Shown in pieces: positions 16,441 to 18,036 of a stretch of DNA of 44,375 nt (position 1 is the first letter of the stretch; every line of letters starts with the position of its first letter). The stretch is taken from NCBI RefSeq assembly GCF_017873415.1, contig NZ_JAGGKD010000017.1, positions 1-44,375 on the forward strand, written 5' to 3'. Position numbers and translations under genes: made by a program. Below the pieces are notes generated by a model. That model ran no database searches and was not told the DNA's origin. It saw only the letters and a list, made by a program, of their open reading frames with translations. The DNA is from Methanolobus bombayensis. Lineage in GTDB: Archaea > Halobacteriota > Methanosarcinia > Methanosarcinales > Methanosarcinaceae.

Positions 16441-16499
16441 GATAAGATCATATCTGTTCTGTAAACCATGTTTGGCAGTCAAAACAGATTTATCTTATC
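16441..16499 (-). terminator. long inverted repeat at the 3' end of the regulator gene
   Basis: Bases 16441-16458 and 16483-16499 are reverse complements over 17 positions with a single one-base bulge (GATAAGAT then TCTGTT on the left arm). The right arm overlaps the last codons and stop of the winged-helix gene. It folds into a long hairpin in its mRNA and may terminate transcription or protect the 3' end. No T-run follows. The remaining intergenic sequence 16206-16440 shows nothing I can assign. Confidence 0.5.
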
Positions 16500-17206
16500 C
16501 TTTCGAACAGTGGCAATTCATCGGGATGATAACCTTCCTTTAAGTAATAGTTTCTGAATTTGCCATTGGTTTCCACTTCAAGACAATCTATGTCATCAAG
16601 TGTTTTGATATGGGAACTTACCGCACCTTTGGAAAGTCCAAGCTTCTCACAAAGTTCCATGTTAGTTATCCCGGGGTTCTCATAGATTTTGCGGCAGACT
16701 TTCTTGCAGGTAACACCCGGCAGATGAGGCTCAATATGCCTGTGATTCCTGTTCCACAAAGCGCTCTTATTCCTGAACAGGCTCACATAGTTCCCGTTCC
16801 TGAACATGAGAATCTTGCCTGTATCTTTGAGATTGGTAACATGATATCGAACAGTTCCACGTTTAATACCAAGGTCGCTCCCTATCATATTTACAGTGCT
16901 GCCGGGATTGTTCTCTATGAAACTAAGTATCTCCTGACGATTCTTGTTATTTGAATCTTTTTTTGCCCATGCAGTAAGGAGAGCTACTATTTTCCAGCTG
17001 AGGCCGAGGATGATCGTGGAGATTGCTATAATTTTGAAGTATAATGGGAGGTCCCAAAATGAGTAATTGGTATCAGAACCCATAGTATTAACTGAGTCAC
17101 GTGAACGTTCATCAAATGAAATGGAGTATTCAGCTGAACATATACCTGTCAAAATTAGTAAAAATATAAGGATGATAGGTAATATTTTCATACCCATCAT
17201 AATCAC
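16490..17206 (-). CDS. Membrane-anchored winged-helix transcription regulator
   Basis: The 238-residue protein has an N-terminal hydrophobic signal or anchor (about residues 8-25), a short extracytoplasmic stretch and a second membrane segment (about 55-76, FKIIAISTIILGLSWKIVALL). Two winged-helix DNA-binding domains follow: the first with NPGSTVNMIGSDLGIKRGTV and RYHVTNLKDTGKI, the second with NPGITNMELCEKLGLSKGAV and SSHIKTLDDIDC. Such one-component membrane regulators are common in Methanosarcinaceae and are thought to sense something outside the membrane. The frame opens with GTG 17206; ATGs at 17200, 17197 and 17191 are equally possible starts. It begins three bases after the stop of the small secreted protein, so the two are likely co-transcribed. 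A self-control or hdrA-control role is inference only. Confidence 0.85.
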   Translation of the reverse strand: MIMMGMKILPIILIFLLILTGICSAEYSISFDERSRDSVNTMGSDTNYSFWDLPLYFKIIAISTIILGLSWKIVALLTAWAKKDSNNKNRQEILSFIENNPGSTVNMIGSDLGIKRGTVRYHVTNLKDTGKILMFRNGNYVSLFRNKSALWNRNHRHIEPHLPGVTCKKVCRKIYENPGITNMELCEKLGLSKGAVSSHIKTLDDIDCLEVETNGKFRNYYLKEGYHPDELPLFERIR

Positions 17207-17209
17207 GTA

Positions 17210-17623
17210 TTAGATAGAATAATCTTCTGTCCCTGTGACAGAATAACCATATACTCTATACATCCAAGTTCCTTGTTCAATTCCATCATCATTATTGATA
17301 TATACTTTTATTCTACCATTTATTCTTCCGTCAGATGAATCATAGTAAGGACCAAAGCGTTCGTTGCTTGGAGAATAAATATATAGCTTTAAAGAATCAC
17401 TTGTATCGCCCCAATTAAGATCAACTGCTAATGTTTCAGTATAACTACCGATATACTGACTGTGCCAGTTTGTTTCACCCTGAGTAATAGTATCAGAAAT
17501 AGACCTGATACCAATTATTCCTATTGAATCGGATACTAAATCACTGCTCTTTTCAGATGAGCTTGCACTTGCGATGGAAACGCAGAGCAAGAATACGAGA
17601 AATGCTATTGCTATTCTTTTCAT
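17210..17623 (-). CDS. Small secreted protein of unknown function
   Basis: The protein (137 residues from ATG 17623) has a clear signal peptide (MKRIAIAFLVFLLCVSIASA) and then a compact domain predicted to be beta-rich, with SDTITQGETNWHSQYIG, LNWGDTSDSLKLYIYSPSN and GTWMYRVYGYSVTG. The last half resembles pre-peptidase C-terminal-like beta-sandwiches seen in many archaeal secreted proteins. That resemblance is weak and I do not assign a function. The frame extends to GTG 17647, but AGGAGT lies 6 bases before ATG 17623. It is followed within three bases by the membrane-anchored regulator, which suggests a sensor-partner pair. A TATA-like sequence lies at about 17676-17684 (minus strand). Confidence 0.75.
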   Translation of the reverse strand: MKRIAIAFLVFLLCVSIASASSSEKSSDLVSDSIGIIGIRSISDTITQGETNWHSQYIGSYTETLAVDLNWGDTSDSLKLYIYSPSNERFGPYYDSSDGRINGRIKVYINNDDGIEQGTWMYRVYGYSVTGTEDYSI

Positions 17624-17691
17624 GTTTGTACTCCTACTAGCTTTCACTAGTTATTCAAAAAGATGAAAAAAAGTAGTATATAACTTTTCTA

Positions 17692-17706
17692 GCCATCGTT
17701 TAAACT
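17692..17706. repeat. 15-nt element with GTTTAAAC core, copy 1
   Basis: GCCATCGTTTAAACT at 17692-17706 recurs identically at 17883-17897. This copy lies just upstream of the TATA box of the secreted protein and regulator operon (minus strand). The core GTTTAAAC is an 8-nt palindrome, so a dimeric regulator could bind in either direction. Confidence 0.55.
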
Positions 17707-17762
17707 AAAAAAAAGTAATGATAAGAAGTAATTTTATTGTGGAGTTGGATGTAGTTTCAAGT

Positions 17763-17860
17763 GGAATGAGGGAGCAGAAGGACATGGAAATGTCCTCCTC
17801 ACGTCCCTCAAATTCCGTGCAGGTTTGTGCTGGTTGGGTACAAACAATTCAAAGAATTCA
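17763..17860 (+). ncRNA. candidate structured RNA or DNA element between divergent genes
   Basis: Three consecutive foldable units lie here. The first is the best: GGAAT plus GAGGGA (17763-17773) pairs with TCCCTC plus, after a 2-nt bulge, ATTCC (17804-17816). Inside it AGGACAT (17779-17785) pairs with ATGTCCT (17790-17796) around a GGAA tetraloop of the GNRA type. Next, GTTTGT (17823-17828) pairs with ACAAAC (17840-17845). Last, AATTC/GAATT form a short stem around 17850. The region lies upstream of both flanking promoters, so it is not simply a leader of either gene. I do not recognise a known RNA family, and which strand is transcribed is unknown. Confidence 0.4.
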
Positions 17861-17882
17861 GATTTATAATAAAACCATTATG

Positions 17883-17908
17883 GCCATCGTTTAAACTGAT
17901 TTATATAT
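17883..17908 (+). promoter_or_regulatory. hdrA promoter: second copy of the 15-nt element followed by TATA box
   Basis: The second copy of GCCATCGTTTAAACT (17883-17897) is followed three bases later by TTATATAT (17901-17908). Transcription would start near 17930, giving a leader of about 105 nt before hdrA. In that leader TGAAGAT (17973-17979) pairs with ATCTTCA (17993-17999). GGGAGC precedes the hdrA ATG. Confidence 0.55.
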
Positions 17909-18036
17909 CCAGGATAGTTTATTACATCCTGCAGGTTAAAGAAACAATAAGTCTCTGATGTTATTGCTATAGTGAAGATCATGCAAAACTATATCTTCAT
18001 CCGGGTCATCATTTCCTGCTATAGGGAGCCAACAAT

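Follow-up and report, generated by a model that had tools for sequence, protein, structure and literature searches.

Positions 17763-17860 of a 44,375-nucleotide stretch of Methanolobus bombayensis DNA (the window, which makes up contig 17 of a genome of 3.1 Mb) fold strongly, and our analysis indicates that they are likely the body of a small RNA gene of about 139 nt on the minus strand, here called type A. With moderate confidence, we favour the reading that type A is a minus-strand RNA, present in a subset of Methanolobus, whose 5' end masks the ribosome-binding site (RBS) of the adjacent gene for a small signal-peptide-like protein. Masking of this RBS, which we rate a little better than even, is the best mechanism that we can offer, and it is helped by the clearer case of a paralogous RNA, type B. 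A first-pass annotation of the window had described the segment as a strongly folding element upstream of hdrA, either an independent small RNA or the remnant of a mobile element; both its observations and its interpretation held in part.

The folded segment and its boundaries

The predicted folding energy of 17763-17860 was -37.2 kcal/mol on the plus strand, against -23.5 +/- 3.0 in 200 dinucleotide shuffles (z -4.5, 0/200 as good), and -35.0 kcal/mol on the minus strand (z -4.1, 0/200 as good). The plus-strand fold contains the outer stem of 11 pairs that the first-pass annotation had reported, with a bulge of two bases, as well as the internal loop and the inner stem of 7 pairs closed by GGAA; instead of two further hairpins, however, the minimum-energy plus-strand fold has only one. 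The loop had been called GNRA-type, which fits GGAA in this genome but not its homologues, because the corresponding plus-strand loop is AAAA, GAA, GGAU etc. in other species. A search with the Rfam 15 families gave no match at or above a gathering threshold in the window; at E <= 10 there were four weak ones, all scoring far short of their thresholds. The first-pass annotation had likewise not recognised a known RNA class.

The segment lies, as had been noted, between two outer divergent promoters, marked by the TATA-like box of the secreted-protein gene near 17684-17676 on the minus strand and by CAAAACTATATCTT before hdrA at 17984-17997 on the plus strand. Two features had been overlooked: a third promoter-like stretch (17897-17867, minus strand), which is directed into the segment, and an exact 15-base direct repeat, GCCATCGTTTAAACT, at 17692-17706 and 17883-17897, which brackets it. 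Bracketing of this kind resembles a target duplication and could speak for the remnant of a palindromic mobile element, but each copy of the repeat belongs to a promoter-like stretch and is followed by a TATA box. Furthermore, type A occurs as one copy per genome in 11 genomes, it gave a single match in its own genome, and no dispersed copies were seen, so that the mobile-element origin is largely refuted and hardly credible.

A probable minus-strand small RNA gene

Type A (17707..17845, minus strand) was delimited by an 11-genome alignment, a covariance model and a comparison of wobble pairs between strands. It is preceded on the same strand by a putative promoter-upstream element, AGTTTAAACGATGGCCATAATGG (17875..17897), similar forms of which stand before type A in 11 genomes, and by the TATA box TTTTATTA (17867..17874); by inspection, a similar A/T-rich box occupies the same position at type A and type B loci. 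Because of the position of the TATA box, we infer that the RNA starts near the G at 17845, about 22 bases past the box, with a possible error of a few bases. In M. psychrophilus, promoter elements are reported to lie about 19-22 nt from the start (PMC5378194).

The predicted RNA consists of a 5' hairpin, HP1 (17823..17845; GUUUGU / ACAAAC with the loop ACCCAACCAGC), the 5' arm of which is the proposed seed, and the long hairpin HP2 (17763..17816), which is the strong fold of the first-pass annotation read on the other strand. It continues through a CU-rich 3' box, ACUCCACAAUAAAAUU(A/C)CU(U/C)C (17725..17745), with many invariant or near-invariant positions in the alignment, to a U8 run (17707..17714), the presumed terminator. 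Archaeal transcription is established to terminate at U-runs; the T-run here is 7-8 long in 8 of the 11 genomes and has a single-base interruption in G060, G057 and G042. A second copy of the promoter element with a TATA box, AGTTTAAACGATGGCTAGAAAAGTTATATAC (17676..17706, minus strand), follows immediately and would serve the secreted-protein operon, and a similar stretch was found after the RNA in 11/11 genomes. The order on the minus strand is thus the same at all 11 loci: a variant of AGTTTNANCNATGGCCATAATGG and a TATA-like box rich in A/T, the RNA with its U-rich end, and then the element once more with the TATA box that belongs to the next gene. The linker UGCACGGAAAUUGAGGGA, the HP1 loop and the 3' box were all conserved in the alignment; the 3' box matched no target. 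We considered and rejected a small open reading frame within the RNA: an ATG frame from the apex of HP2 runs for about 26 codons in G000 and G062 and, judged by eye, meets early stops in G061, G059, G041 and G057.

The promoter element also precedes type B, where it is degraded in G050 and G053, and further copies precede the secreted-protein gene (at 17706) and, in G042 and G045, other genes. By eye, the products of the latter have signal-peptide-like starts, and winged-helix paralogues lie close to two of the sites. We infer that the element confers shared control, perhaps by the winged-helix protein encoded downstream of type A. The occurrence of the element before other genes, two of its sites being close to regulator-gene paralogues, and the exact repeat upstream of both minus-strand promoters would likewise suit an untranscribed DNA element between divergent genes, made up of a palindrome and two regulator sites. 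We consider this very unlikely: the strand bias of wobble substitutions described below would be meaningless for DNA, and a TATA box and a U-run lie at matching distances.

In G042, a conserved leader, AATGTGGAGTGGGGTCCAA...CCCCG(A/G)AACGCCCTAAGGCAAGGTT, separates the promoter element from signal-peptide-like genes at loci L084 (~1960, 8977) and L085 (~1377), and L088 has only the first part of this AATGTGGAGTGGGGTCCAA leader. Rfam gave no match in L084, L085 or L088, and from its sequence this looks like an unlisted structured leader.

Strand and conservation of the fold

The proposal of an independent small RNA is supported by the promoter element, the TATA box, the U-rich end, the single copy and substitutions that preserve pairing better on one strand, but its assignment to the plus strand was probably wrong. 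Among varying pairs of each strand's own consensus, G-U and A-C cells numbered 19:1 on the minus strand and 11:6 on the plus strand; among pairs present in at least four single-sequence folds, the counts were 38:11 and 24:36, respectively. The consensus fold scored -14.3 on the minus strand, with 0/300 column shuffles as good, vs -10.9 on the plus strand, with 4/300 as good. Single-sequence core folds were more stable on the plus strand in 7 of the 11 genomes, G000 included, and a plus-strand RNA might start from a TATA-like TTTTATTG near 17732-17739, which lies in a conserved block. However, the wobble substitutions favour the minus strand, the plus-strand consensus fold is the weaker one, and the promoter element and the U-run both read on the minus strand; we consequently give a plus-strand RNA very little credence.

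The covariation check that had been suggested for relatives gave a mixed answer. Over 11 rows, 96.8% of cells were paired in the 17 minus-strand consensus pairs, compared with 43-69% in slid controls, but only 3 pairs were doubly changed. For the 22 pairs of HP2 in 7 close genomes, 97.4% of cells were paired (slid controls 48-61%), two pairs were doubly changed, and the covariation score of this alignment was reached by 35 of 500 shuffles; the outer pairs of HP2 differ in the remaining 4 genomes. Judged from the pairing rates in slid controls, the double changes and the shuffle count, the fold is firm and its covariation modest. The columns of HP1 are near-invariant and therefore give no covariation signal either way.

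Distribution and neighbouring genes

Searches with the type A covariance model matched 11 of 111 genomes of the family once each (E 8e-22 to 2e-30), which corresponds to 11 of 27 Methanolobus genomes and none of the 84 others. This model was built from the same 11 genomes, so that it tests copy number and absence elsewhere and not membership of the 11, and its stricter filters may miss weak relatives. A DNA search of the 111 genomes returned the same 11, all in Methanolobus, and a pattern derived from the RNA was found in Methanolobus vulcani (two strains), M. profundi and a Methanolobus MAG.

The proposed target, 'secr' (17210..17623, minus strand), has the RBS GGAGUACAAAC before its ATG at 17623-17621; its signal peptide was recognised by eye, and the protein belongs to no Pfam or NCBIfam family. 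A homologue is the first gene after the small RNA on its strand in 11/11 genomes. It is followed, again on the same strand in all 11, by a gene (16490..17206, minus strand, in the window) for a protein that combines a hydrophobic N-terminal part with two winged helix-turn-helix domains (Pfam HTH_24, HTH_HVO_0163_N and MarR_2), which judged by eye is putatively anchored in the membrane. Orthologues of this presumptive regulator (E < 1e-60) were confined, among the 111 genomes, to the 11 with the small RNA and to G047 and G065. In G065, which belongs to another genus, the layout is the same, with a different RNA-like segment before the secreted-protein/regulator pair.

On the other side of type A, hdrA is the neighbour in most genomes, but 2.3 kb separate the two in G062, and in G050 they are on different contigs. 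The link to methanogenesis control that had been proposed is not upheld, the constant neighbours being the secreted-protein and regulator genes (11/11). We also rejected type A as a leader or riboregulator of hdrA, on the grounds of its probable location on the opposite strand, a promoter-like box before hdrA in all 11 genomes, synteny, and duplex scores. The box, AAAACTATATC, presumably hdrA's own promoter, is found at most 80 bases before hdrA in 24 of the 27 Methanolobus genomes, among them the 11 with type A (it is absent from G039, G046 and G052), and duplexes of type A with the hdrA leader were mostly no better than those of shuffled RNA in the 9 of 11 genomes tested (z +1.7 to -1.6).

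Several other features were observed around these genes. The 5' UTR of the secreted-protein gene (17623-17660, minus strand), with its homologues in L003-L012, has a hairpin just before the Shine-Dalgarno sequence, ACUAGU-GAAA-GCUAGU, and in G050 this hairpin has another stem, GCUAAUU...AAUUAGC; the stem seems to be kept despite the change in sequence. Upstream of hdrA at L027, L030, L031, L032 and L034, in genomes without type A, there is a divergent frame with boxes like TTTTTGATAC and AGTTTCCNNNTGGATAC flanking an A/T-rich stretch, and this arrangement of boxes occurs twice in G043 and G056. Finally, differing RNA-like segments stand behind related promoter elements at L033 (G047), L038 (G040) and L116 (G065), those of G047 and G040 being near hdrA; all three are possible divergent relatives. 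A prediction of the same kind as that for type A, AAGCCAAC(N0-2)ATG for the G047/G040 segment, gave no match in those two genomes and one in G051.

Complementarity of type A to the secreted-protein RBS

The 5' end of type A is complementary to the RBS of the secreted-protein gene over 9-11 nt in 10 of the 11 genomes. At this start, the longest perfect complement measures 9 nt in eight genomes, and G057 and G042 reach 11 nt; shuffled RNA attains such a length in 0-1.2% of cases. In 10 of the 11 genomes, the best duplex between type A and the secreted-protein leader opens with UGUUUGUACCC on GGAGUACAAACA. Scored against shuffled RNA, the duplexes had z values of -1.3 to -2.5 in ten genomes and +0.75 in G063, where HP1 and the RBS are both altered, without compensation.

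The match was also compared with other start regions. Among 26 start regions of the window, chosen by hand from its 57 ORFs with overlapping and antisense ORFs excluded, the secreted-protein start ranked first by 5' duplex energy (-19.7 vs -14.3 for the next). When the whole RNA was used, one other start region of 27 in the window had a 9-nt match, which was to the 3' box. In 27 genomes, GAGTACAAAC(N0-2)ATG had 17 sites, 10 at the secreted-protein gene and 7 elsewhere, compared with 6 for a reversed control. Of the 7, at least the one at L154 (G060) stands before a further signal-peptide-like frame.

Based on these matches, we propose the following mechanism. Type A would start past its TATA box, fold as HP1 and the long HP2, and end at the U8 run before the next promoter. 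Its 5'-terminal GUUUGUACCC is antisense to GGAGUACAAAC|AUG, the RBS in the adjoining mRNA for the secreted protein, and masking would depend on the match of its segment GUUUGUAC to that RBS. First contact may be made by the HP1 loop, after which the 5' arm would open onto the mRNA, and the resulting duplex over the Shine-Dalgarno sequence and spacer would lower translation of the secreted-protein/regulator operon. Because the RNA and its target have a common promoter-upstream element, both would be induced at the same time, with the RNA restraining the operon. The conservation, the fold, the strand bias of substitutions, the promoter-like and U-run sequences, the synteny and the complementarity are observations; transcription, its start site, masking, the direction of the effect and the shared regulator are what they lead us to expect.

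Several considerations weigh against this proposal. A 9-nt type A match, as present in most genomes, would be about a 1% event per chosen start, and the genomes are related; in addition, the 5' arm of HP1 is itself paired in the predicted fold. Moreover, the small RNA may be real with its main target elsewhere, either in other mRNAs, perhaps the regulator cistron, or in a protein bound through the HP1 loop, the linker and the 3' box. The conservation of these three parts, which reaches far past the 9-nt match, is consistent with this, as are duplexes with the regulator start, which are strong in some genomes. Over the 11 genomes, z for the regulator start region ranged from +0.3 to -3.3, at differing places, and it surpassed the secreted-protein leader in G000 and G057 (-3.2 and -3.3), among others. 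Co-folding likewise did not single out the secreted-protein leader: type A on this leader gave -10.2 to -16.3 kcal/mol in ten genomes and -5.7 in G063, similar to the -6.2 to -14.5 kcal/mol on the leader of a DUF1699 gene, which was equal or better in G045, G057 and G063. Nevertheless, it is the most conserved 5' end that matches the RBS of the adjacent gene in 10/11 genomes, and the paralogue behaves alike with a longer match; we judge a main target elsewhere to be rather unlikely, although the most serious of the alternatives.

The paralogue type B and DUF1699

Nine genomes (G042, G045, G050, G053, G057, G059, G060, G061 and G063) have type B, a tandem paralogue next to hdrA. In seven of them it lies between type A and hdrA on one contig; in G050 the two RNAs are on separate contigs, and G053 has no type A match. 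A type B model built from the nine matched these and no other of the 27 genus genomes, so that type B was not found in the genome of the window. In other genera it gave weak matches in G006, G090 and G097 (E 0.007-0.06) that look unrelated by eye, with filters so strict that weak relatives may be missed.

The 5' end of type B, which differs in sequence from that of type A, would cover the RBS of a gene for a DUF1699 protein (PF08004) in the same way: a perfect complement of 13-14 nt is present at this RBS in 8 of the 9 type B genomes. The exception is G050, in which the type B 5' end is changed, the promoter element degraded and the DUF1699 RBS changed. Among genomes without type B, tested with the G045 sequence, the DUF1699 site was found in 3 of 18 (G054, G058 and G062), as against 8 of 9 with type B (Fisher p 0.0006, uncorrected for kinship). 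The 14-mer AGGAAGGTAAAACA had 21 sites in the 27 genomes, compared with 2 for a control: assigned by position, 11 were at DUF1699 starts, 6 in type B genes (on the other strand), 2 in an intergenic element of G060/G061 and 2 elsewhere in G058. Outside type B genes, 11 of 15 sites were thus at DUF1699 starts. Co-folding of type B with the DUF1699 leader gave -13.7 to -22.7 kcal/mol in the eight genomes with the match and -6.1 in G050, and with the secreted-protein leader -3.5 to -15.2 kcal/mol; these modelled energies support the action of B on DUF1699 more than that of A on the secreted protein.

The intergenic element of G061 (L228/L249, C1 ~3100282-3100365) and G060 (L229/L248, C1 ~850134-850213) consists of a TATA-like ACTTATAAATAGG, then CAGGAAGGTAAAACAG, then a hairpin. 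By eye, CAGGAAGGTAAAACAG is the complement of the type B 5' end over 16 nt in G060 and 14 nt in G061, and the element may act as a decoy for type B or encode a B-like RNA from the opposite strand.

Type B also bears on whether the hairpins belong to a separate RNA at all. An upstream promoter could instead give a longer operon mRNA with the hairpins in its 5' UTR, where HP1 would pair with the RBS in cis. Such a leader would fit the common strand, the similar promoter elements and the end of the RNA immediately before the downstream promoter, and in Methanolobus psychrophilus 219 genes are reported to have multiple start sites, with RBS masking predicted for longer leaders (PMC5378194). However, a U-rich run separates the two in 11/11 genomes, uninterrupted in 8, and type B matches an unlinked gene, for which action in trans is needed. 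We find the long leader improbable and return to separate small RNAs. As a tentative extension, the tandem paralogues by hdrA could form a re-targetable array with one scaffold and promoter and different 5' anti-RBS seeds, each directed at a single mRNA (A, the secreted-protein/regulator operon; B, DUF1699); conservation of the RBS mostly follows that of the seed, and two genomes may contain a decoy for B.

Relation to known archaeal small RNAs and significance

Conserved complementarity to the RBS of the target, as in the class of RBS-masking sRNAs, was found for type A in 10/11 genomes and for type B in 8/9, and in our best reading, which rests on sequence comparison, type A would be a further example of an archaeal intergenic RBS-masking sRNA, a kind already known. 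In Methanosarcina mazei, sRNA162 has several stem-loops, masks an RBS and has a homologue, sRNA171, in the same species; homologues are reported only in M. acetivorans and M. barkeri (PMC3510493). Like the proposed type A, it acts on a neighbouring operon with a transcription factor by masking an RBS (PMC3510493). It blocks the transcription-factor cistron through a 39-nt single-stranded linker that lies between stem-loops 2 and 3, and its 5' end pairs with another mRNA (PMC3510493), whereas type A, from Methanolobus, would place its 5' end on the first cistron; the two are set apart by description, not by sequence. The three stem-loops with a pairing linker of sRNA162 were not found in type A, which has a predicted fold of two hairpins and its best match at the 5' end. 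Two further M. mazei sRNAs are intergenic and mask RBSs, sRNA154 that of glnA2 and sRNA41 those of the ACDS mRNAs; by description only, they are unlike type A in responding to nitrogen, and sRNA154 has several targets and acts through loop 2 (PMC5867862).

The sRNAs of M. psychrophilus R15 resemble type A in coming from the same genus, in being conserved and in having a conserved motif upstream of the promoter, and its cold-box sRNAs have a cold-box motif at that place and are induced at 8 C (PMC5378194). Neither the type A nor the type B model matched genome G043. We take G043 to be M. psychrophilus R15. A repeated GTTTTTTAAATGACCATAAT in G043 (contig 1, many places) was considered as a candidate for the cold box and rejected, as eight copies have near-identical long flanks; this high-copy element is apparently an insertion sequence. 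If the M. psychrophilus cold box reads like GTTTNANCNATGGCCATAAT, the type A family would join the cold-induced sRNAs; otherwise it would be separate. In the literature listings that we searched, there was no paper on the type A RNA or on DUF1699 in methanogens, and other sources may include the RNA.

Convincing targets are known for few archaeal sRNAs. Here, a small, conserved family offers specific base-level predictions for two, the adjacent secreted-protein/winged-helix regulator operon and the unlinked DUF1699 gene. Together with the genomes that show changes in both RNA and site (G050 for B, G063 for A), the 13-14 nt match of type B would make the coevolution of an archaeal sRNA and its target testable, for example in M. 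vulcani or M. profundi.
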